NCBI RefSeq assembly: GCF_001748285.1
Contig: NZ_BDGT01000001.1
Coordinates: 1-64,000, forward strand
Direction: 5' to 3'
DNA length: 64,000 nt
Source: Thermogemmatispora onikobensis
GTDB taxonomy: Bacteria; Chloroflexota; Ktedonobacteria; Ktedonobacterales; Ktedonobacteraceae
In this document: in pieces, positions 7,066 to 62,681 of the stretch
Numbering within the stretch: the stretch's first letter is position 1
Layout: each line of letters begins with the position of its first letter
Made by a program: the position numbers and the translations under genes
The notes under the pieces: generated by a model
What the model was told of the DNA's origin: nothing
Seen by the model: only the letters and a program-made list of their open reading frames with translations
Databases searched by the model: none

Positions 7066-7725
7066 CTACGATTGTCGCAGCTCTGCGCGCTTGCTTTGGA
7101 GATACTCGGAGCATACCCGATAGGTCTCTTCAGAGATCAGCCCGCGTGACATATAGTGATTGAGCATCACATCAAGCTTGAGGATGCTGATCAGATTATA
7201 GCCGTGCTGACGAAGGCGCTCGGTTGCTCCATGCTCGCGGTCGATCAGCACAATCACATCCTTGACCTTCAGACCGTGCTCTTCCAGCAGGGCTGCGGTC
7301 TCCAGCACACTGCCCCCCCGTGTGATCAGGTCATCGATAATCAGAGCGGTATCTCCCGGTGTGTAGCGACCCTCGATCCCTCGCTGGCCCGTCCCCTCGG
7401 GGCGGATACGTGCATAAATCAGCGGCGTATTCGTCTCCAATGAATAGGCCGTTGCCAGCAGCAGCCCGCCGACTGGCACGCCAGCCACCACGTTGAAGGG
7501 ATGAACGCGCGGACGCCGCAGCGATTGGGCGAGGCTGATCTCTTGCTGCATCAACTTGCTGGCTACGCGCAGCGCCAGCGGATTGCTGATCAGCACCTTG
7601 GGATTGACAAAGACCGGGGAACTCACCGCCGACTCGCTGACCGTGAAGTTCCCAAACTGGACACCGTTCAGGTCGAATAGGGCCTGGGCTAGCCAGAGGT
7701 TATCAAGAGACTGCTCTTTGACCAC
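7066..7725 (-). CDS. pyrE: orotate phosphoribosyltransferase
   Basis: A 219-residue enzyme that joins orotate and PRPP to make OMP in pyrimidine synthesis. The PRPP-binding loop is TALIIDDLITRGGS, and an upstream VAGVPVGGLLLAT loop and YARIRPEGTG catalytic-loop region fit the family. The frame is open much further upstream, but GTG at 7725 is preferred: it has AAGGAAGG seven bases before it and begins where the family homology begins. No other pyr gene is nearby. A TATACT at 7798-7793 could be its -10, although no good -35 is present. Confidence 0.9.
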   Translation of the reverse strand: MVKEQSLDNLWLAQALFDLNGVQFGNFTVSESAVSSPVFVNPKVLISNPLALRVASKLMQQEISLAQSLRRPRVHPFNVVAGVPVGGLLLATAYSLETNTPLIYARIRPEGTGQRGIEGRYTPGDTALIIDDLITRGGSVLETAALLEEHGLKVKDVIVLIDREHGATERLRQHGYNLISILKLDVMLNHYMSRGLISEETYRVCSEYLQSKRAELRQS

Positions 7726-50190: not shown

Positions 50191-50489
50191 CGTTCCTCTC
50201 TCTAGAGAAGAGGCAGGCAACACCTGCCTGGTCCGGGGGCAGGTCTCACCTTGCGGCTCGCTACTTCAGGTGGCTCTATTCTAGATGACCGACGAGATGT
50301 TGCCTAGACGGTTGGACGAAAAATACTGGCCTTGGCGGGTTGGCTCCCCCCGCCCTCCGGTTTGACCGTAACGAGGCAAGGCGGGGGTGATCGATCGCTG
50401 GGGACGAACGCGAACCGCGAGATTTTGGTGGGGCAATTCAGCTATACTGTCTCGTATCAAGGCTGATGACGGAGGAGAAGAAGCTGACT
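50191..50489. other. intergenic region upstream of the GH3 gene
   Basis: Minus-strand gene start on one side and a TATACT (50443-50448) on the other. Apart from the presumed promoter nothing is seen. Confidence 0.4.
50443..50448 (+). promoter_or_regulatory. -10 element for the GH3-GH43 operon
   Basis: TATACT with a weak -35; transcription would begin near 50455, which favours the start codon at 50490 because the codon at 50466 would leave a leader of only about 11 bases. Confidence 0.35.
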
Positions 50490-52769
50490 ATGAGCCGAGA
50501 TGAACACGCTGGGCAGGTCCAACAACGGATCGAAGCGTTGTTGGCCTCGATGACCCTTGAAGAGAAAGCCGGGCAACTCACGCAGTACTTCTACTTTCCA
50601 GGTTTCACGCTCCAGACCGCCTTTGTGGAGGAAGAGATCCGCGCCGGACGGGTAGGGAGCCTGTTGTTTGTCGCCGACCCGGCTCAGACCAATCGCCTCC
50701 AGCGCCTTGCGGTTGAGGAGAGTCGCCTTGGTATCCCGCTGCTCTTCGGCTTCGATGTCATTCACGGCCTGCGCACCATCTTCCCCGTGCCGCTCGGGCT
50801 GGCGGCCTCGTGGGACCCGGAGCTGGTTGAGCAGGTGCAAGCGGTGGCGGCGCGCGAGGCGCGGGCGGTCGGTATTCACTGGGCCTTTGCTCCGATGGTG
50901 GATATTGCCCGTGATCCGCGCTGGGGCCGCATCGTCGAGGGAGTCGGCGAAGATCCCTATCTGGGGGCGCGCCTGGCTGCTGCTCATGTGCGCGGCTTTC
51001 AAGGCGAGGGAGATGGAGCAGCCGGGCAGATTGTGGCGGGGCCGAAGCACTTCGTTGGCTATGGGGCAGCGCTGGGTGGACGCGACTATGATGAGGTCAA
51101 TCTTTCCGAGAGTGAGCTGCGCAACGTCTATCTGCCGCCGTTTGCAGCGGCAGTTGAGGCGGGAGCCGCAAACATCATGAGTTCCTATGTGGGGATCAAC
51201 GGGGTGCCAGCGGCGGCGGATCGCCGGCTGCTCACCGAGGTGCTGCGGAACGAGCTAGGTTTCCGGGGCTTTGTGGTGAGCGACGCCAACGCAGTGATCG
51301 ACCTGACCACCCACGGTCTGACGCGCGACGATCGCGATGCGGCGCTGCGGGCGCTCCAGGCCGGCCTGGACATGGAGATGTCCCTGGGAGTGCAGTTTGT
51401 GGGCGAGCACGGCCCAACGGCGCGCCCTGCGGCCTTCGCAACGCTGCCGGAGGCGGTGCGAGCTGGCCAGGCCGACGAGCGTCTGCTCAACGAAGCAGTG
51501 AGGCGGGTGCTGGCCCTCAAGTTCCGCCTGGGCCTCTTTGAGCAGCCGTATGTCGACGAGGCACGTGCCAGCGTGGTTCTGGGAGCGCCCGCTCACCGTG
51601 AGCTGGCGCGCGTGGCCGCCGAGCGCTCGGCGGTGCTGCTGCGCAATACAGGGGTCTTGCCCCTCGACCGGGCAGCGCTGCGCCGGCTGGCTGTCATCGG
51701 GCCGCTGGCAGCGGATCAGCGGGCGACCCTTGGCCCGTGGGTATTTGTGCCGGATCTGGAGCGTACGGTCACCCTGCTAGAGGGACTCCGCCAGACGGCA
51801 GGCCCTACAGTGCAGGTCGACTATGCGCCAGGGGTGCCGCTGCCAACCCGGCCTATTCCCTCGCCATTCGCGGCTCTTGACCAGCTCGTCGCCGGCTCTT
51901 CCCTGGCGGGGGAGCCGCCATTTGATGAGCGGGAGGAGTTCGAGCGAGCCATTGCCCTGGCCCGTTGTGCCGATGTGGCCGTGCTGGTGCTGGGCGAGGC
52001 GGCAGACATGAGTGGTGAAGCGGCTTCGCGCTCCACGCTCGATTTGCCGGGCCGTCAGTTGGAGCTGTTGGAAGCGGTGGCCGAGACTGGGACGCCGCTG
52101 GTCCTGGTGCTGCTCTGTGGTCGACCGCTCGACCTGCGTCGCGTGGTTGAGCGGTCGGCGGCCATCCTGGTAGCCTGGCATCCCGGCAGTGAAGGGGGCA
52201 ATGCGGTGGCCAGGTTGCTCTTTGGCGAGGTCGCGCCTGGGGGAAAACTGCCTGTGAGCTGGCCGCGCAGTGTGGGGCAGGTGCCCTTGATCTATGCGCA
52301 TCTGCGCTCGCACCAGCCGCAGACGAGTGGTCTGCGTTACTGGGAGGAGGAGAGCACGCCCCTCTATCCTTTCGGTTTTGGCCTCAGCTATGGCGAAGTG
52401 GAGTACAGCGATCTCCAGTTAAGCGCTAGCTCAATTGGCCTGCACGATACGCTGGATGCCAGCGTGGTGCTCTCCAATCGCTCGCAGCGCCCTGTCGAAG
52501 AGGTAGCACAGCTGTATCTGCATCAGCGCTATGGGCGGGCGGCCCGTCCGGTGCGTGAGCTAAAAGCCTTCGAGCGTGTAAGCCTGGCCCCAGGAGAAAG
52601 ACGCACGCTCCATTTCAGGCTTGGACCAGAGGCGCGGCGCTACTGGAGCGCTGCGGTGGGGGGCTATGTGCTTGATGAGTCCGTCTTTGACGTTTGGGTA
52701 GGCGGCTCATCGCAGGCCGCCTTACACGCCGAGTTCAGCGTTCAAGCTGACGGTCTGGCCGGCTCCTGA
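50490..52769 (+). CDS. glycoside hydrolase family 3 beta-glycosidase
   Basis: A 759-residue enzyme acting on beta-linked oligosaccharides (glucosidase or xylosidase). The GH3 N-terminal barrel has AREARAVGIHWAFAPMVDIARDPRWGR, GPKHFVGYG and the nucleophile Asp265 in GFVVSDANAV, where many members have SDW. The C-terminal sandwich carries WHPGSEGGNAVARLLFGE, and a fibronectin-III-like domain ends the protein. No signal peptide is present, so it is likely cytoplasmic. GGAGGAG lies upstream of the ATG. The GH43 gene follows by 140 bases. Confidence 0.9.
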   Translation: MSRDEHAGQVQQRIEALLASMTLEEKAGQLTQYFYFPGFTLQTAFVEEEIRAGRVGSLLFVADPAQTNRLQRLAVEESRLGIPLLFGFDVIHGLRTIFPVPLGLAASWDPELVEQVQAVAAREARAVGIHWAFAPMVDIARDPRWGRIVEGVGEDPYLGARLAAAHVRGFQGEGDGAAGQIVAGPKHFVGYGAALGGRDYDEVNLSESELRNVYLPPFAAAVEAGAANIMSSYVGINGVPAAADRRLLTEVLRNELGFRGFVVSDANAVIDLTTHGLTRDDRDAALRALQAGLDMEMSLGVQFVGEHGPTARPAAFATLPEAVRAGQADERLLNEAVRRVLALKFRLGLFEQPYVDEARASVVLGAPAHRELARVAAERSAVLLRNTGVLPLDRAALRRLAVIGPLAADQRATLGPWVFVPDLERTVTLLEGLRQTAGPTVQVDYAPGVPLPTRPIPSPFAALDQLVAGSSLAGEPPFDEREEFERAIALARCADVAVLVLGEAADMSGEAASRSTLDLPGRQLELLEAVAETGTPLVLVLLCGRPLDLRRVVERSAAILVAWHPGSEGGNAVARLLFGEVAPGGKLPVSWPRSVGQVPLIYAHLRSHQPQTSGLRYWEEESTPLYPFGFGLSYGEVEYSDLQLSASSIGLHDTLDASVVLSNRSQRPVEEVAQLYLHQRYGRAARPVRELKAFERVSLAPGERRTLHFRLGPEARRYWSAAVGGYVLDESVFDVWVGGSSQAALHAEFSVQADGLAGS

Positions 52770-52909
52770 CCCTGTTCAGGAAGAATGCCAGCGATGCTGT
52801 AGCTGGTGGGCGCTGATCTCCAGCCCTGGGAGGGCCTCGGGATAGCTTCCCCGGGGGGTCAGCGCTCAGGTCAATGTTTGTTGACAGCCTACGGAAGGCG
52901 AGGTAGACG

Positions 52910-54481
52910 ATGCAGGTGCAAAATCCGATCATTCCCGGTTTCCACCCCGATCCCAGCATCTGCCGCGTCGGTGACGACTACTACCTGGTGACCAGCTCCT
53001 TCGAATATGTTCCTGGCGTACCGGTTTTTCACAGCCGCGACCTGGTCCACTGGCAGTGCATTGGCTACTGCCTTACCCGCCCTGAGCAGCTTCCCCTGCC
53101 GCGGAGCGAGCCGTCGCTAGGGATCTTTGCCCCTACCATCCGCTTCCACCAGGGCATCTTCTACCTGGTCACCACGAACATGGACCTGTATGAAGAGAGA
53201 AGCGGGCGTTGCAGCTTCTATGTCACTGCCCGCGACCCGCGCGGTCCCTGGTCCGATCCAATCTGGCTTGAGCAAGGGGGGATCGACCCATCGCTCTTCT
53301 TTGACGACGATGGCCGTGTCTATCTGACAAGCACCGCTGAGAGTGAGGAGCAGGCGATTCAGCAGAGCGAGCTCGATCCGGCGACAGGCAAGCTCTTGAC
53401 GGAGCCGCGTCTCCTCTGGCGGGGCACTGGGGGCGCCTATCCTGAAGGGCCGCATCTGTACAAGATCGCAGGTCGCTATTACCTGATGATTGCCGAAGGA
53501 GGCACCTCCTACGGTCACATGGAGACGCTGGCCCGTGGCCCAACCCCGTGGGGACCGTGGGAAGCCTGTCCCCACAATCCCATCTTGAGTCATCGCAGCC
53601 TGCTCAGCCCGATTCAGGCGACCGGCCATGCCGACCTGGTGCAGGCCCAAGATGGCAGTTGGTGGCTCGTCTGTCTTGGAGTGAGGCCGCAGCCCTTCAC
53701 CGGACTCCATCATCTGGGGCGAGAAACCTTCCTCGCCCCAGTGGTCTGGGACAGCGACGGCTGGCCCCACGTCGGTGAGAAGGGGCAGATCAGGCTCACC
53801 CTCGACGGGCCACAGCTGCCCGCGGCGCCCTGGCCTGCTTCCCCCACACGCGATGACTTTGACCAGCCCTCGCCCGGCCTTGAGTGGAACTTCCTGCGCT
53901 GGCCTCCGCCCGGCAGTTGGTCGCTGACCGCTCGTCCTGGCTTCTTGCGCCTGCTCGGAAATGCTGCCACGTTGGATCGAGGCTTTGGGGTGGCCTTCAT
54001 GGGGAGGCGGCAAGAGCACGGGCAGTGCACCGCCTCCACCCGGCTCGAATTTGCCCCCCAGCGAGAGGGACATGAGGCCGGCTTGACTGTCTGGATGAAC
54101 CGCGAGCACCACTATGAGATCGCCGTCGTCTGCCAGAACGGGGAGCGCTGGGTCATCGTCCGCCAGCGCCTTGGGGGCCTGACGGCTATCGTCGCCCGCG
54201 AGCAGGTGGAAGCCGGATCGATCTTCTTGAGCGTTGAGGCCATTCAGCCGACACAGCCGGCGTTTCGCGCTTCCTCCCACTATCGTTTCTCATACTCCCT
54301 GGGCGAGGGAGCAGCACGCGAGCTGGCCCGGGGCGAGAGCCGCTATCTGGCTTCAGAGGTCGCCGGCGGCTTCACTGGTGTCTACTTCGCCCTCTATGCG
54401 ACGACCAACGGAGGGACGGATACCGCCGTCGCCGACTTCGACTGGTTCGACTACCTGCCCTCTCCAGACGTTGCCTCCTGA
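52910..54481 (+). CDS. glycoside hydrolase family 43 beta-xylosidase/arabinofuranosidase
   Basis: A 523-residue enzyme. The five-bladed propeller has catalytic residues in the family positions: Asp14 (FHPDPS), Asp126 (GGIDPSLF) and Glu179 (EGPHLY), close to those of characterised XynB3-type beta-xylosidases. The C-terminal beta-sandwich (about 310-520) is the accessory domain of that subfamily. No signal peptide, so it works on imported xylo-oligosaccharides. Its start lies 140 bases after the GH3 gene, suggesting one operon for hemicellulose breakdown. Confidence 0.92.
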   Translation: MQVQNPIIPGFHPDPSICRVGDDYYLVTSSFEYVPGVPVFHSRDLVHWQCIGYCLTRPEQLPLPRSEPSLGIFAPTIRFHQGIFYLVTTNMDLYEERSGRCSFYVTARDPRGPWSDPIWLEQGGIDPSLFFDDDGRVYLTSTAESEEQAIQQSELDPATGKLLTEPRLLWRGTGGAYPEGPHLYKIAGRYYLMIAEGGTSYGHMETLARGPTPWGPWEACPHNPILSHRSLLSPIQATGHADLVQAQDGSWWLVCLGVRPQPFTGLHHLGRETFLAPVVWDSDGWPHVGEKGQIRLTLDGPQLPAAPWPASPTRDDFDQPSPGLEWNFLRWPPPGSWSLTARPGFLRLLGNAATLDRGFGVAFMGRRQEHGQCTASTRLEFAPQREGHEAGLTVWMNREHHYEIAVVCQNGERWVIVRQRLGGLTAIVAREQVEAGSIFLSVEAIQPTQPAFRASSHYRFSYSLGEGAARELARGESRYLASEVAGGFTGVYFALYATTNGGTDTAVADFDWFDYLPSPDVAS

Positions 54482-54633: not shown

Positions 54634-56577
54634 TCAGGCAGTGCTGCCCTCGCGCAGACGGAAGACCTCAACCGAGCGGCGCAGGTACTCGACCCGCTGC
54701 GCCAGCGCCTCCACATGCTGCGAAGCCTGGCGCGTATTCACATTCATCTGGCGCGTTGCCTGAGAGAGGCGCTGCATAATCTGCACAATCGACGTGAACG
54801 CCTGCAGTTGCCGGGCCGCCATATCCGTAATGCGCTCAATCTCGCGTGCCTGCAATTCGACCGCTGCCGAAATTGTCTCCAGTGCAGAGCCAGCCTCCTG
54901 AGCACGCTCTGCCCCAAAGGCGCTTTCTTGTTCTGTCGTGCGCATTGAACTGGTCACGGTGCTGATATCCTGTCGTACCCCTTCGACGATGTGGACGATC
55001 GAGCGCGCCTGGCTATTGGCGCGCTCGGCCAGGCGTTGGATATCTGCCGCGACGGCCCCGAAGCCACGCACGGACTCCCCTTCGTAGGCGACCAACGCTG
55101 CTGCATCCTGGGCCAGACGGTTCGTCTGCTCAACAATGGCCGAGATCACCTCGACGGTGCTATTAATGGCACGCGAATGCTCATCGAGCTTTTCAACCTT
55201 GGTGGCAGTGGCCTGCACATTCTCATAGATGCGCTTCAGCCCCTCAAGCACTTGCTGAACAGCCTGTCGACCCTGGCGCACATGCTGGAGCGACTCATGG
55301 GTACTCGTTTGAAGCATATGAGCGCGATCAGCGATATGGCGGCTGGAGGAGGCCATATGCTCGATCTCGCGGCTCGCGCGGGCGATCTGCTGCAGTTGCT
55401 GATCACCTGTTTCCACCAGGCGCGCCAGGGCATCGACCACAACGGTCGTCGAGATGGCCACCTCGCGCGCCGCTCCTTTGACACGCATGACCAGGCTGCT
55501 CAACTCGGCCAGCATATAATTAAAGGCATTGGCAATAATCTGCAGCGTCCCGCCGGTCATTCGAGCGCGACCGCTCAAGTTGCCCTGGCTGACCCCGCTG
55601 ACATCGCCCACCAGGGCCTCAATCTGCTTCTGCAGGGCGTTGCGCTGAGCTTGAATCTCCTGGATCAGGCGCACCATATGGTCAAGCATACTATTGAGGG
55701 AGCGCGCCACCAGGGCGATCTCATCACGGCCCGAAACCGAGGCTCGAACACTGGTGTCACCGCGGGCGATACGGCGGGTCAGGCGAGCCAGCTGACCCAG
55801 GGGGCGCGCGATCGTCCAGTAGACAAAGGTCCCGACCAGCAAGACGACCGCGATAATCAGGATGGCGGCCAGCACGATCTCAATCGCCGTCTGCGTAGCC
55901 TGGGGTCCAGTCACCTCGACGACCTTGTCACCTACGGTTTCCGTGAGGTCGACAAGATGCTTCCAATCATTTTCCAGAGGGGTATAAGTGCTATTGGCCT
56001 GCTGCAGCAGCTGAGTTGTCTGACTGGTCTTGCTCGAAGACTGCAACGCAGCCAGCTCGCGATCTTGCGCCTGCAGGTAGTGCTCCCACTCACCTGACAA
56101 GATGCGCTGCAGCGTCTGCTGTTGATCGCTGGCCAGGCCGCGGGTACTGCTCTCGCTCTCGAGCAGGGCGCGGATAGGGGTCATCTGCGGCGAAGTGGCC
56201 AGCAGATAATGCTGCTGGTAGCTTGTCAGGCCCTGAGCAAAGGTCGACTCCAGGGTCTTGATCTCGGTAGTCAGGCGCTGGCGCAGGGCGGACAGATCCG
56301 TATTGGGGGCTCCGGCGATCGTCGTTGACACGAAAGTCTGGGCCTGCAATGCGATCAGGTCGGCGTGCATATGCTGTAAAGTTGCCAGCTGCGTGGTGGC
56401 AACATGGACGGCGTCAGTGCTGACCTGGACCGCCTCGCTGCGGCCATTGAGCGCATCGATATAGGCACGTCCGAGCAGCCAGAGGATGATGCCCGGGATG
56501 ACCGCCACCAACATGGCTGCCAGGAAGAGGCGCCGCACAATGGGCGCCTGCGAGATCCATCTCATCGGAACCATCAT
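54634..56577 (-). CDS. methyl-accepting chemotaxis protein-like receptor 1
   Basis: A 647-residue membrane receptor: helix (about 15-37), extracytoplasmic four-helix-like domain (about 40-230), second helix (about 232-260), HAMP (about 260-312) and a long signalling coiled coil. The hairpin tip reads EQTNRLAQDAAALVAYEGES, whereas canonical receptors have QTNLLALNAAIEAARAGE; GFGAVAADIQRLAERA follows. So kinase contact may be altered. ATG at 56577 has AAGAAGGGA before it. It is the third gene of an operon with a solute-binding protein. Confidence 0.8.
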   Translation of the reverse strand: MMVPMRWISQAPIVRRLFLAAMLVAVIPGIILWLLGRAYIDALNGRSEAVQVSTDAVHVATTQLATLQHMHADLIALQAQTFVSTTIAGAPNTDLSALRQRLTTEIKTLESTFAQGLTSYQQHYLLATSPQMTPIRALLESESSTRGLASDQQQTLQRILSGEWEHYLQAQDRELAALQSSSKTSQTTQLLQQANSTYTPLENDWKHLVDLTETVGDKVVEVTGPQATQTAIEIVLAAILIIAVVLLVGTFVYWTIARPLGQLARLTRRIARGDTSVRASVSGRDEIALVARSLNSMLDHMVRLIQEIQAQRNALQKQIEALVGDVSGVSQGNLSGRARMTGGTLQIIANAFNYMLAELSSLVMRVKGAAREVAISTTVVVDALARLVETGDQQLQQIARASREIEHMASSSRHIADRAHMLQTSTHESLQHVRQGRQAVQQVLEGLKRIYENVQATATKVEKLDEHSRAINSTVEVISAIVEQTNRLAQDAAALVAYEGESVRGFGAVAADIQRLAERANSQARSIVHIVEGVRQDISTVTSSMRTTEQESAFGAERAQEAGSALETISAAVELQAREIERITDMAARQLQAFTSIVQIMQRLSQATRQMNVNTRQASQHVEALAQRVEYLRRSVEVFRLREGSTA

Positions 56578-56670
56578 GCTCACATTCCCTTCTTGCTTTG
56601 CGGCATTGCTTCGTCCTCAACACAGGGACCTGGAATGAGATTGGTTGGACAGGTGGGCCACTCGGACCAC

Positions 56671-58476
56671 TCAGACATGATGCAAGGTGAGCGCCACTTG
56701 CTCATTATCGGGATAGCTGTAGGGGGAAGGCACGGCGTAGGGGTTGTGCTCATCGGGCCATCCCACAAAGCGGGCCGTTGTATACTCGTACCAGTTGACG
56801 CTGTAGAGCAAGGGAATCGAGGGCAACTGCTCCACCATAATGCGCTGCAATCCATTGAGAGCCTGCTGCTGCACAGCGGGGTCGGTTGAGTGAGCATACT
56901 GAGCCAGCAGGTGATCGGTTGTGGGATCGCTCCAGCGCTCCCAGTTCGAGGGGGCGGACTTTCCGATCGGTGCCGTGTTAGCGCTATCGAGCAGCGCATC
57001 GTACAGGTAGTAAGGAGAGGGGCCGCTGTTGGTCCAGGAGATCGCACTCTCAAAGGAACCCAGCTGCAGATCCGAGATATAGGTATTGAGCGAGAGGGCC
57101 TTGACAGTGACCGAGATGCCGATCGCAGCCAGATCCTGGGCCATCAACTTGCAGTCCTTCTCCCAGTCGGTCCAGCCAGAGACGACCTCCATGCTGAAAG
57201 CCAGCTGCCGGCCCTCGCGATCTACAAAGATGCCATCGCTTCCCCGCACAAAGCCAGCCCCTTCCAGTAAGCGGATGGCGCGGGCTCGATCGACCTGGAA
57301 CGAGAGCGAGCGATACTGCGGAGCCAGGAAGGAGCGGTAGGCGGGCAGAACAATGCCCGTTGGATGAGGCGGTGGCTCGTAGCCATTCTCTCCCTCTTTG
57401 GAGAGGCGCTCACGGTCGATTGCCAGACTGATGGCCTGGCGCACAGGGAGGAGATTGAAGGGATAGCGAGCCGTATTGAGATAGAGCATAACGATGGCGA
57501 TAGGGGGCAGCCAGTAGCGATTGTGAGTGGGATCGCGTCCCACAAAGCTCTGCAGATTCGAGCTAAAAAGGCCGGTCCAGTCAATAGAACCCTGGGCCAG
57601 GAGCAGGTCGGCGCTGGCGTTGGAGACATAAGCCGGATAACGCAGCTGGCTGATATAGGGCTTGCCGGGCTGCCAGTAGTGCGGATTACGCTCCAGGATA
57701 TAGAGTGTGGGATCAAACGACTTCAGCATGAAAGGACCAGTGCCGACTGGATTGGGATTGGCCTCATGGACGGGATCTTTGAAGCGCTCCCAAATATGGC
57801 GCGGCACGATGTAGGTCTGGCCCCCGATGTACCACTCCTCCGGGAACGATGGCTGCTTGAAGGTCACGACCACACGAGAGGGATCGGGGGCCGTCACCTC
57901 CTTGACGGTTGTCCAGATGCTATGGAGATCGAGGGCAGGGAAACGATGGAGCAGATTCAGCGTAAAGACCACATCGTCGCTGGTCAAAGGCTGGCCGTCG
58001 CTCCACTCGACCCCGCGACGCAACTGGAAGGTCAGCGTCTTGAGGTCGCTGGACCAGGAGAAGCCGGTTGCCAACCAGGGCTTCACCTGCCCGGTCTCCT
58101 GATTAAAGAAGAGCAAGGTCTCATAGATCATCCCTTTGGTGCCACTGAGTGTCGAATTGTCGGCAGCAAAGGGGTTGAAGAAGCGCTGGAAGCGTCCATA
58201 GGGGCCGGGCACAATGGTCAAAGCTCCCCCATACTTGATCTGCGAACCTGGCTGCGCGCTACTCCCGGGCATACTGCCAGGTATACAGGCTGTCATTACC
58301 AGCAACAGGGCCACAGCCAGCATCAAGAGCCATAGGGCCTGTGGATGCTGGGACCTCTCGCGGTGTTGTCTCCCCCAGCGCGGGCTGGAACCAGGCGAGG
58401 AGCCACCCCTGGGCGAGAGCGTGGAGCGATGAGACTGGTGGGCAGGGCGAGCATGAGCAGGGACAGCGATGGACAT
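56671..58476 (-). CDS. family-5 extracellular solute-binding lipoprotein
   Basis: A 601-residue protein. A 45-residue hydrophilic leader precedes a hydrophobic stretch ending LLVMTAC, the lipobox. The mature part is the SBP_bac_5 fold (DppA/OppA/CbtA type): MIYETLLFFNQETGQVKPWLA, RRGVEWSDGQPLTSDDVVFT, VGTGPFMLKS and RQAISLAIDRERL. It may bind peptides or cello/xylo-oligosaccharides. No permease or ATPase genes are next to it, so a sensing role with the flanking receptors is plausible. AAGGAGG lies before the ATG, 25 bases after the first receptor gene. Confidence 0.85.
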   Translation of the reverse strand: MSIAVPAHARPAHQSHRSTLSPRGGSSPGSSPRWGRQHRERSQHPQALWLLMLAVALLLVMTACIPGSMPGSSAQPGSQIKYGGALTIVPGPYGRFQRFFNPFAADNSTLSGTKGMIYETLLFFNQETGQVKPWLATGFSWSSDLKTLTFQLRRGVEWSDGQPLTSDDVVFTLNLLHRFPALDLHSIWTTVKEVTAPDPSRVVVTFKQPSFPEEWYIGGQTYIVPRHIWERFKDPVHEANPNPVGTGPFMLKSFDPTLYILERNPHYWQPGKPYISQLRYPAYVSNASADLLLAQGSIDWTGLFSSNLQSFVGRDPTHNRYWLPPIAIVMLYLNTARYPFNLLPVRQAISLAIDRERLSKEGENGYEPPPHPTGIVLPAYRSFLAPQYRSLSFQVDRARAIRLLEGAGFVRGSDGIFVDREGRQLAFSMEVVSGWTDWEKDCKLMAQDLAAIGISVTVKALSLNTYISDLQLGSFESAISWTNSGPSPYYLYDALLDSANTAPIGKSAPSNWERWSDPTTDHLLAQYAHSTDPAVQQQALNGLQRIMVEQLPSIPLLYSVNWYEYTTARFVGWPDEHNPYAVPSPYSYPDNEQVALTLHHV

Positions 58477-58501
58477 GGTGCATCCTCCTTGACATCAGAT
58501 C

Positions 58502-60703
58502 CTACTGATAGGGCTCGCCATCGGGAGCTTGCGGCTGTTGCGGGACCCACAGCGGTGAAGAGGGCAAAGGAGTCTGAGGGCTGGACCCTGCGAGCCCCGT
58601 TGGTGGCAGGGGAGTCACCGCTCCGCCGGGAGGCAGAGGGGTCTGGGGCGGGAGATGGAGCAGCCCGGGCTGGGACTGACCAAGCGGGGCGCTGACAGGT
58701 CGTGTGCCTGAGCCAAGCGGGGAGATCGAACCCGTCGTTGTCAGACTGCGACGCTCGCTTGCGACCGAGCTCGGAGCAGCTGCAGCTGACTGCTCACGTG
58801 AGACCTTGAAGGCATCGACAGAGACTCGTAGATGCTCAACTAATGAGGCCAGGCGCTGCATATGATGAGTGGCCTCACCCAGCCGAGCCTTGTTCGTCTG
58901 CGTCAGATCGGCCACATACTGCATAATCTGGACAGCCGCCGTGGCCAGCTCCATCTGTCTGGTCACGAGGCTGGTGATATCGGCGATATCGCGGGCCTGG
59001 CGCTCAACAGTGGCAAAAATGCCCTCCAGGGTTCGCTCAACATCTTGAGAGACCTTGCTTTCCAGAGTGGTCTCGCGCTGGGTGCGCTCCATAGAAGTCG
59101 CGGCCTCGGCGATATCCTCCTGAGCGCTGCGCACAATGCGGGCGATGTTATTGGCCTCCAGCTTGGCCTGCTCAGCCAGGCGCCGAATGCGTACGGCAAC
59201 CGCGCCGAACTCTTTGCGCCCCTCGCCGGCCATTGCCGCCTGGATAGCCGAATCGAGAGCGAGGCGATGAGTCTGATAGGCCAGGCTGAAAATGACCTCT
59301 ACGATATCGTTAATCTCCTGTGAACGCTCGCCGAGGCTGCGCACGCGCTGCGTCGTCGCCTGCACATGAGCGTGAATATGCCCGAGGCGATTAATGGCGT
59401 CCCAGGTGGCCTGATGCCCACCAGTAGCGCTGCGCTGCGTGTCCTGGGCAATGCCTTCCAGAATCTGGGCATGCTGCGCCACCTCCTGGCTGGCCAGGGC
59501 CATCTGCTCCACGCCGCCTGCCGCCTCAGTGATCTGCTGAATCTGGAATTCGCTGATCTGGCTGAGGTGGGTCATCTGCTCCAGCGTGAGGCGGGTTGAG
59601 GTCTCTACCTCACGGGCCACCTGCTTGATGCGAATCACCAGCCCCTCCAGCTCGCTGATCATGTAATTGAAAGAGGAGGCGAGCACGCCCAGCACATCGC
59701 CAGTCACATCGGCGCGGATGCGCAGATCACCCTCGCCAACTCCCTTCACTTCGCCTGCCAGGTTACCGATGCGCGTCTGTAGAAGATCGCGCTGCTGCTG
59801 GGTGTTTTCCATCAGTTGGACAATGGTGTCGAGCATCGTATTCATCGAGGCGGCCACGCGGGCGATCTCGTCGCGCCCGCTTAGCCTGGCACGCGCCAGC
59901 GTATCGCCGGCACTGATGCGTCGGGTCAGCTGGATGAGCTGGCGCAGCGGGCGGCTGATCGTCAGATTGACAAGGTAGCCAATGGTGAAGACAAAGAGCA
60001 TGGACAGGGGGATGGCGGTCACCGTTCCAATCAACATGGGAACGGTCTGCGAAGGGCCAACGCGCACGACCTCGGTGTTAACTCGCTCGGCAATGTCTAC
60101 AATACGTTGCCAGCTTGCTAAGAGCGGGGTGTAGAGCTGATCAGCCTTCTGCAGGAGCTGGGCGGCTTGGGCCAGGGGCATGCGCGTGTCGAGGCCGATC
60201 AAAAGGTCGTCCTGCGCGGCCTTGTACTGCGGCCATTGATGCTCCAAAATAAGGTCCAGCAGCTGCTGTTGCTCGCGAATAATGGGGGTATGTGGATCAT
60301 TATCGAGCAGAATCTGCCGAATGTCGGCCATCGCCGGGGCGGTGGCGAGCTGGTACTGTTCCTGATAGGCCACACTGTCAACATCAAAGCTCCCTTCGAT
60401 GCTGAGCACCTGAAGAATAACATCTTCTTCAGCGCGCGTCACGGTGGCATCGCTGGTGCTATTGGTGGTGACGCTCGGTAGGAGGGCCACAAGCAGAGCA
60501 TGCATGCTCTGCAGACGCGCCAGCTCGGTGGTGGTGATCTTGATGGTCTGGTTACTGATCAAGACAGCTTGTCTTCCCGACTCCAGGGCATGGAAGTAGA
60601 TACTGCTGAGGAAGACAATAGCAATAAAAGGGATGATGGTTGCCCAGGCAAAAGTGGCAAAGAGCCGTAGGGAAATCGGTGTGTTACTGATCCATCTCGG
60701 CAT
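58502..60703 (-). CDS. methyl-accepting chemotaxis protein-like receptor 2
   Basis: A 733-residue receptor with the same plan as its partner: helix (about 12-35), extracytoplasmic domain, second helix (about 235-258), HAMP (about 258-310), a coiled-coil signalling region with the tip YQTHRLALDSAIQAAMAGE, closer to the canonical sequence, and a long proline/threonine/serine-rich tail of about 110 residues not normal for such receptors. ATG at 60703 follows GAGGAGG. It is the first gene of a receptor-SBP-receptor operon. Confidence 0.82.
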   Translation of the reverse strand: MPRWISNTPISLRLFATFAWATIIPFIAIVFLSSIYFHALESGRQAVLISNQTIKITTTELARLQSMHALLVALLPSVTTNSTSDATVTRAEEDVILQVLSIEGSFDVDSVAYQEQYQLATAPAMADIRQILLDNDPHTPIIREQQQLLDLILEHQWPQYKAAQDDLLIGLDTRMPLAQAAQLLQKADQLYTPLLASWQRIVDIAERVNTEVVRVGPSQTVPMLIGTVTAIPLSMLFVFTIGYLVNLTISRPLRQLIQLTRRISAGDTLARARLSGRDEIARVAASMNTMLDTIVQLMENTQQQRDLLQTRIGNLAGEVKGVGEGDLRIRADVTGDVLGVLASSFNYMISELEGLVIRIKQVAREVETSTRLTLEQMTHLSQISEFQIQQITEAAGGVEQMALASQEVAQHAQILEGIAQDTQRSATGGHQATWDAINRLGHIHAHVQATTQRVRSLGERSQEINDIVEVIFSLAYQTHRLALDSAIQAAMAGEGRKEFGAVAVRIRRLAEQAKLEANNIARIVRSAQEDIAEAATSMERTQRETTLESKVSQDVERTLEGIFATVERQARDIADITSLVTRQMELATAAVQIMQYVADLTQTNKARLGEATHHMQRLASLVEHLRVSVDAFKVSREQSAAAAPSSVASERRSLTTTGSISPLGSGTRPVSAPLGQSQPGLLHLPPQTPLPPGGAVTPLPPTGLAGSSPQTPLPSSPLWVPQQPQAPDGEPYQ

Positions 60704-61097
60704 CTTCCTGGCCTCCTCTCTTGCGCTCGGCTCCGTCGCGCCTCTCTCTGCTGCTTGCGGGTTCGCTTGCAGGACCACACGCGGTCATGAGTCATGACGT
60801 CAAACGCTGCCAGTGATGTTGAGCTAAGTATACAATATCAGTAGTCATGGAATTCCTAAATGGTTGATTACTCACCTGAATTTCTTACCGACATTCTTCT
60901 CTACGTTGTTACGGTACCGGTACCGTAACAATATCAGAAATCGATCTATAGTGCAAAGACAAAACTCATGCTCCGGCGAGGAGCGAGAGCCGGAGGACAT
61001 GCAGTGTGGGCACGTTGTAGAGGGGAGGTGGAGGTAGTGGGCAAGGAGTGGTGGGCAAAGTGAATGGGGAACCTGGTGTGTGATGAGGCAGAGATCG
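60704..61097. other. control region upstream of the receptor operon
   Basis: It contains a TATACT (minus strand 60834-60829), the 26-bp palindrome (60906-60931), a TTGCAC with 17-base spacer and TATTGT overlapping the palindrome (minus strand about 60956-60928), and a purine-rich stretch from about 61015. No coding gene is seen. Confidence 0.5.
60906..60931. promoter_or_regulatory. perfect 26-bp palindrome, candidate operator
   Basis: The half-site TTGTTACGGTACC is followed directly by its exact reverse complement. A possible -10 (TATTGT) overlaps its right edge on the minus strand, the direction of the receptor operon that begins about 200 bases away. The size and symmetry suit a TetR- or LacI-type repressor dimer, or two dimers. 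Confidence 0.7.
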
Positions 61098-62681
61098 TCA
61101 GCCGCGCAGAGGAAGGGGGAGCTGGAGTGGTAAGAGGAGGAGGGCGCCGGGCAGGGGGAGCGGGAGGCTGCCGGCGCTGTGGGCAGAGGCTATCAGGAAG
61201 AGGAAGACGAAGACCAGGAGCAGTACCGCCAGAGCAATGGCTGTCAATAGGATTGCCGTGCGCAGGCTCAGGCCCTTCTCGGAGAGGGAGAGTGGCCACC
61301 CTTGAGAGTGGGCCGTGTGGGGAGCAGGGGCGGTGGAGATGGCGGCTGCTCTGCGCCGTGAGCGTATTGACCCCGCCTGACCGCTGACGTCGCTGACGAC
61401 GGGGGCAGCCGAGGAAGCGGCCTGAACGCGGGTTGAAGGCAGCACCAGACGCTGTGGTTGTTCCTGACTGGTTGGACTGCCAACGCGCGGCGAACGAGTC
61501 GAACCACCTGCGGCCTGGGGATTGACCCAGCCGCAGCGGGGGCAGCCTGGCTGCGAAGAGGTCAGAGGCATCTGGCAGACTGGACAGCTCACGCCGGGTG
61601 TGCTGGTACGGGCCTGATGCAGGTCCTCGTAGAGTTGAGGCAGGTCTGGCTGCGTTTTATGAGGATCGACTGCGCGCCCTCTCTCCGCGGTGGGAGCGGG
61701 AGGCTCCTGACGCGCTCGTTGCAGCTGCTCCTGGACCTGTCTCAGCTCGGCCTTCAGCTCTGCCACCGACTGGTAGCGTTCTGCGGGCTTGAGCGCCATA
61801 GCTCGCTGGATAATGGCATTGAGCCGCTGCAGAATCTCTGGAGGGAGCACGGCGAGCTGGGCCACATGACGCGGCATGCGTGCCCCTCGCGAGGGGCGCG
61901 CGGCCTCGAAGCGGAAAGATTTGCCAGCCTTTTCTTCGGCCAGGAGACGGGCCAGCTGCTCCTGCAGCGAAGGCAGGCCAGAATGTCCCTGCTGGAGTGC
62001 CTGATTGCGGGCCGAAACGCTGGCTGGCTCTTGCATCGTTAAGGCGAAATAGAGTGTTCCACCCAGAGCGTAGACATCGGAGCGGGGGTCGGTGCCGCTC
62101 CCACCGGGATACTGTTCGGGCGGAGCATAGCCGGGCGTGCCTTGATGGCGGGCGAAGAAGAGCGTACGTGCTCCGTCGGCCACCGCCTTCGCATTGCCCA
62201 GGTCGACCAGATAGGCCGTCCCGTCGGAGGTAATGCGGATATTGTCGGGCTTGATATCGCGATGGATCACCGGCGGCTGCTGACTGTGGAGAAACTGGAC
62301 GGCATCGCAGACCGCTAGCAACCAGCCCAGAATCACAGGTAAAGGAATAGCCTCATCGCGCTGGCGAGCCAGACGCAGCTGTTCGGTCAGGTCGCGCCCT
62401 TCGATATAGCTCAGCACGACATAGTAGCGCCCGCGCTCGCTGAAGGCGTCGATAAAGCTGGGCAAATGGGGATGGTGGAGGCGGCTGAGCACGCGCGCCT
62501 CATGCTGGAGCTGAGCCTGGCCACTGGCACCGGTGACCAGATATTCTTTCACCGCACAAGGTTGATTGCTGCGCAGGTCCACTGCCAGGTAGACATGGCC
62601 GAAGCCGCCGCTGCCCAGGGCCCGCTCAATGCGGTACTGGCCACGCATGATCGTCCCCGGCGGGATGGTTTCGATCATCAT
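61098..62681 (-). CDS. Hanks-type serine/threonine protein kinase
   Basis: A 527-residue membrane-attached kinase. The domain (about 14-290) has GSGGFGHVY, the lysine VKEY (Lys45), HRDIKPDN (Asp142), DLG in place of DFG (Asp160) and APPEQY. A zinc ribbon (CPVC and CPRC, about 370-390) lies in the linker, and a membrane segment is near 475-500. The C-terminal 30 residues are leucine/proline-rich and unusual. It would phosphorylate proteins in the cytoplasm; the target is unknown. A receptor operon lies downstream and the deacetylase gene is divergent. Confidence 0.88.
   Translation of the reverse strand: MMIETIPPGTIMRGQYRIERALGSGGFGHVYLAVDLRSNQPCAVKEYLVTGASGQAQLQHEARVLSRLHHPHLPSFIDAFSERGRYYVVLSYIEGRDLTEQLRLARQRDEAIPLPVILGWLLAVCDAVQFLHSQQPPVIHRDIKPDNIRITSDGTAYLVDLGNAKAVADGARTLFFARHQGTPGYAPPEQYPGGSGTDPRSDVYALGGTLYFALTMQEPASVSARNQALQQGHSGLPSLQEQLARLLAEEKAGKSFRFEAARPSRGARMPRHVAQLAVLPPEILQRLNAIIQRAMALKPAERYQSVAELKAELRQVQEQLQRARQEPPAPTAERGRAVDPHKTQPDLPQLYEDLHQARTSTPGVSCPVCQMPLTSSQPGCPRCGWVNPQAAGGSTRSPRVGSPTSQEQPQRLVLPSTRVQAASSAAPVVSDVSGQAGSIRSRRRAAAISTAPAPHTAHSQGWPLSLSEKGLSLRTAILLTAIALAVLLLVFVFLFLIASAHSAGSLPLPLPGALLLLPLQLPLPLRG

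Follow-up and report, generated by a model that had tools for sequence, protein, structure and literature searches.

A perfect 26-bp palindrome upstream of a chemoreceptor-like operon in Thermogemmatispora onikobensis (Ktedonobacteria) is very probably an operator of the LacI family and, the sign of regulation set aside, is likely to be the operator of one particular regulator, the product of the unlinked LacI-family gene G000:C30:7582-8730 (hereafter C30). Operators of this family are already known, and this is a further example, with an unlinked regulator, a receptor operon as its target, and a distant position. An orphan palindrome is in this way tied to a specific unlinked regulator gene, which makes a two-target regulon open to test in a class of bacteria that has received little study and would place a predicted sugar-type repressor over chemoreceptor-like genes.

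The palindrome and the receptor operon

The window, the whole stretch of 64,000 nucleotides that was analyzed, carries TTGTTACGGTACCGGTACCGTAACAA at 60906-60931, a loopless palindrome with the arms TTGTTACGGTACC|GGTACCGTAACAA, bordered on one side by a Ser/Thr kinase gene (61098-62681, minus strand), of which the 3' end is the nearer, and on the other by an MCP/SBP/MCP operon. The features of this region are as follows.

54634-56583, minus strand: second MCP-type receptor, HAMP and MCPsignal domains (open reading frame and domain matches)
56671-58476, minus strand: family-5 extracellular solute-binding protein, SBP_bac_5 (open reading frame and domain match)
58502-60703, minus strand: MCP-type receptor of 733 aa, first gene of the operon, HAMP and MCPsignal domains (open reading frame and domain matches)
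60704-60957, minus strand: conserved noncoding block, from the MCP start codon to 26 bp upstream of the palindrome, 93-99% identity
60906-60931, unstranded: proposed LacI-family operator, 26-bp perfect palindrome, three CpG at 6-bp steps with the dyad at the central CpG
60908-60929, unstranded: 22-bp core GTTACGGTACCGGTACCGTAAC, exact in the operator of a Clostridia LacI gene and 20/22 in that of the Thermogemmatispora LacI gene

The palindrome is the longest perfect one in the window, the runner-up being 20 bp long and situated in a gene, and lies 203-228 bp upstream of the MCP start codon. At uniform composition, 64000/4^13 = 0.001 palindromes of 26 bp are expected per window, and the original prediction, which placed a perfect palindrome at a receptor operon and judged its symmetry very improbable by chance, was correct on both points, its coordinates and the downstream operon included. 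In 264 kb of the window's genome, only two perfect palindromes of at least 22 bp are found, namely this site and one at the LacI-family gene described below. An intrinsic terminator was rejected as an explanation, as no T-run follows the palindrome on either strand and the lone terminator-like match lies at 60970-60984.

The operon itself (54634-60703), in which the two MCP-type receptors flank the family-5 solute-binding protein, is devoid of transporter genes, and by eye the signaling tips of both receptors look degenerate when set against the usual MCP consensus (e.g., AYQTHRLALDSAIQAAMAGEG). Since CheW-domain proteins are encoded elsewhere in the same genome, the receptors could act as inputs to a chemosensory pathway.

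Conservation of the palindrome and its leader

In an alignment of six Thermogemmatispora genomes, the palindrome is identical at 26/26 positions and occupies the same location in all six; variation of the site, which had been named along with a lack of protein binding as grounds for refutation, was not seen among them. Records with the same site include T. carboxidivorans PM5, T. tikiterensis T81, T. aurantia A1-2, and metagenome-assembled genomes (MAGs). Outside the palindrome 21% of the alignment columns are variable, versus none inside it. The 254-column block as a whole reaches the identity listed above between species, compared with 50-89% at four-fold degenerate sites of the MCP gene in the same pairs, and it is noncoding, indels of 1, 6, 7, and 12 nt disrupting its frames. 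The same indels led to the rejection of an MCP frame extended upstream of 60703, and a conserved upstream open reading frame of 18 codons (ATGACTACT...) was likewise discarded, its start codon being lost in one genome (G004) and its changes being nonsynonymous.

Because the whole block of approximately 250 bp is conserved, the constraint covers more than the palindrome alone. The remainder of the MCP leader (60704-60905) is conserved in the six species and includes invariant stretches of 23 and 24 bp (e.g., TATTGTATACTTAGCTCAACATC), far more than an operator explains; it probably contains additional regulatory elements or serves a function as RNA. As an alternative to a DNA operator, the palindrome itself might act at the RNA level, as a hairpin within a 5' leader that is long and conserved (a stability element, or a leader that binds a protein or ligand). 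Conservation over the full leader length is in keeping with this, as are flanking bases that lengthen the stem with imperfect pairing and one pair among them that varies as G-C, A-U, A-C, or C-C; however, the leader folds no better than its shuffles (z -1.24), covariation is essentially nil, Rfam contains no match, and the related LacI-promoter arrays show CpG periodicity and for the most part form no hairpin. A hairpin is consequently considered quite improbable, and a known RNA or riboswitch was rejected owing to the same Rfam, folding, and covariation results.

A sibling site at an unlinked LacI-family gene

When the half-site TTGTTACGGTACC was searched with up to one mismatch, the whole 5.56-Mb genome yielded no further copy, but symmetric relaxation, carried out as part of the half-site search that had originally been suggested, gave exactly one sibling, which lies at a LacI-family gene and therefore points to the binding protein. 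Searching the six genomes with GTTACGRTACCGGTAYCGTAAC at up to three mismatches returned two sites in each of five, one at the receptor operon and one at the LacI-gene promoter, and the receptor-operon site alone in G004. In that genome the LacI gene falls into an assembly gap (the flanking dnaE contig stops at base 7558, while the opposite flank starts at base 1 of another contig); the pair of sites is present in 5/5 testable genomes.

The sibling site, GTTACGATACCGGTATCGTAAC, directly follows a TTGACA-17-TACACT promoter of C30, and GTAACCGGTTACGATACCGGTATCGTAACCGGTAAC is found immediately upstream of the gene. In all five genomes TTTACCTTGTAACCGG... follows this promoter, so placed that the operator spans roughly +1 to +36. 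An operator located just downstream of a gene's own promoter is the usual layout of negative autoregulation. The 22-bp cores of the two sites differ in one symmetric pair (G/A), which leaves 20/22 positions matching, and the LacI-gene site is the longer of the two, with 30 bp of perfect symmetry and six CpG rungs that provide symmetric centers 12 bp apart. A third site (G000:C12:61741; one mismatch to the 16-bp core, five genomes) was dismissed as coincidental, since it falls where a nuoK-like coding sequence begins and lacks the outer CpG.

The C30 protein (382 aa) consists of an N-terminal LacI helix-turn-helix domain (PF00356, 70.8 bits) followed by a periplasmic-binding-protein-like sensor domain (Peripla_BP_3, PF13377, 124.3 bits), both above the cut-off, and its relatives of solved structure are CcpA, PurR, and LacI. 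Against the NCBIfam equivalogs (PurR, CcpA, RbsR, GntR, and others) all of its scores fall far under the cut-offs, so that it matches no named LacI group from which an effector could be read. The GH3 and GH43 genes that adjoin the receptor operon (50466-54481) make a plant-sugar effector plausible at most. Literature searches on LacI operators in Ktedonobacter and on transcription in Thermogemmatispora found nothing on point.

It is unlikely, although the family is large enough to raise the question, that the palindrome is instead the LacI-type operator of a different paralogue and that C30 is not its main regulator. Each genome holds approximately 18 LacI-family matches, several with the helix SKATVSRVLN, and the paralogues C103 and C3 are 62-67% identical to C30 with a nearly identical recognition helix; given the one symmetric pair that separates the receptor-operon core from the C30 operator, such a paralogue could be the true partner. 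When the arrays at the paralogues' own promoters are compared with the receptor-operon core, however, C103 matches at 15/22 and C3 at 14/22, and none of the 12 other LacI-family genes examined in this genome (13 in total) exceeds 15/22 in its upstream region, versus 20/22 for C30. Against the preferred reading as a whole stand the unusual distance of the site from the start codon, the absence of a strong promoter that overlaps it, the conservation of the entire 250-bp block, and the absence of linkage between the regulator gene and the receptor operon.

With C30 as the preferred regulator, one dimer would bind the 22-26-bp site with its dyad at the central CpG. The same protein, on the longer version of the site just downstream of its own promoter, would exert negative autoregulation. 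At the receptor operon it would most likely keep MCP-SBP-MCP repressed until released by a small effector, probably a sugar-like one, and on balance action as a repressor is moderately favored over the opposite sign.

Occurrence of the core outside Thermogemmatispora

When 84,980 genomes were scanned for the 20-bp core, five Thermogemmatispora records and one Clostridia MAG were recovered; the latter, the sole match outside the genus, lies at a LacI-family gene's promoter. In the MAG, the identical 22-bp core is contained within a 28-bp perfect palindrome approximately 40 bp upstream of the gene, and a TTGACA-17-TACATT promoter lies 11 bp ahead of the array. The clostridial protein and C30 share 35% identity over their whole length but resemble each other much more closely in the DNA-binding domain (VSKATVSRVLNHKPDVDPVTRE in C30 versus VSKTTVSRVLNQKPDVNPVTRE). 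The proposal of a strong operator made at the outset is supported by these near-identical sites at LacI-gene promoters in the same genome and in Clostridia, together with the lack of interspecies variation and of a U-tract.

In 41 other Ktedonobacteria genomes the palindrome is absent at up to three mismatches, and the 18-bp core has no match in the viral collection. A DNA search with the leader outside the genus produced two 35-bp matches only, of which the one inspected (G030) resembles GC-rich coding DNA. Perfect symmetry and an identical place in six genomes might also be expected of a site for chromosome maintenance or recombination (dif, parS-like, or telomere resolution), and symmetry could arise by chance; yet the site is internal to a single 5.6-Mb contig of T. 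carboxidivorans, its sole sibling marks a LacI gene, it is missing from the 41 genomes yet present at the clostridial LacI gene, and its invariance excludes chance, so that this explanation is regarded as very improbable indeed.

Comparison with known LacI-family operators

Operators of the LacI family are even-length palindromes, about 16-22 nt long and centered on CG (PMC4052901). The receptor-operon site conforms in its even length, 26 bp of perfect symmetry, shared 22-bp core, and C|G center, and in these respects resembles the operators of CcpA, PurR, and GntR/IdnR (PMC4052901). Similarity extends to the autoregulated regulator and the small regulon, unlinked or local; 72% of the family is autoregulated (PMC4052901), and a site matching this one at 20/22 is present at the LacI-gene promoter in the same genome. 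In contrast to the known examples (PMC4052901), the symmetry here is longer (26 bp, and 30 bp at the LacI gene), the palindrome is further upstream, and the target is a chemoreceptor-like operon and not sugar catabolism. Its distance from the start codon departs from the usual position, which is a tendency rather than a requirement, 7% of the sites in the family lying more than 200 bp upstream (PMC4052901).

Candidate promoters at the receptor operon

Two candidate promoters are predicted from the sequence upstream of the first receptor gene.

60928-60956, minus strand: P1, TTGCAC-17-TATTGT with TG extended -10, overlapping the palindrome, proposed by analogy of geometry
60832-60860, minus strand: P2, TTTAGG-17-TATTGT with TG extended -10, no change in either hexamer among six genomes

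P1 stops 2 bp short of the first CpG, in a geometry similar to that of the LacI-gene promoters, and its -35 falls where the conserved block begins. The palindrome had been thought to overlap a possible promoter, and this holds in so far as the weak P1 overlaps the left arm (as read on the minus strand); the -11 A of P1 varies between species, however, and the better-conserved extended -10, that of P2, is found approximately 90 bp downstream. No strong promoter overlaps the palindrome. Both candidates are weaker than the LacI-gene promoter, and transcription of the operon may start from either.

CpG ladders in Ktedonobacteria

The LacI subfamily to which C30 belongs is expanded in Ktedonobacteria, with close relatives, often several, in 40/47 genomes. 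Runs of at least four CpG at exact 6-bp steps are present in 18 of 25 upstream regions scanned, most of them never matched in 200 dinucleotide shuffles; the arrangement is an unusual one. Of 17 arrays inspected, 13 are preceded by a TTGACA-17-TATACT-like promoter, which matches at 10-11 of 12 positions and stops 3-12 bp short of the run. The run at L154 is doubtful, as it lies in GC-rich surroundings 320 bp upstream. Upstream of MCP homologues outside the genus, no CpG ladder exceeds three rungs.

Overlapping LacI-family sites approximately 13 bp apart, as described for GntR at gntKU of Escherichia coli, have been called difficult to reconcile with structures (PMC4052901). The C30 operator is similarly arranged, its centers 12 bp apart (rungs 0 and 2) sharing a CpG rung; the difference from GntR at gntKU (PMC4052901) is that here the ladders comprise 4-8 rungs at an exact 6-bp step and occur class-wide, the receptor-operon site having three. 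We tentatively suggest that a large Ktedonobacteria LacI subfamily, together with its Clostridia relative, may use CpG-ladder operators, that such ladders might be occupied by successive overlapping dimers with rungs in common, and that the receptor-operon palindrome might be the minimal three-rung unit. Compared with the six rungs at the C30 site, three would be enough for one dimer. Ladder operators could represent a new variant of LacI-family operators, and they offer natural substrates for the study of overlapping LacI-dimer binding, a question that the comparative literature leaves open.

Ladders of 4-8 CpG lie upstream of a LacI-family gene at each of L130, L132, L133, L135, L136, L137, L139, L141, L145, and L149, with further loci at L115 and L069:2700-2765; they directly follow promoters of the TTGACA-17-TATACT type, and the set spans Ktedonobacteria and the Clostridia MAG. 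L142, the contig-end case among the scanned regions, carries a 120-bp perfect palindrome upstream of a LacI-family gene (L142:1-140), which is probably an assembly artefact given its location. Another 26-bp perfect palindrome, TATCTATAACTAATTAGTTATAGATA, is found in a family relative (L024:1301-1326), 175-200 bp past the 3' end of an MCP homologue.
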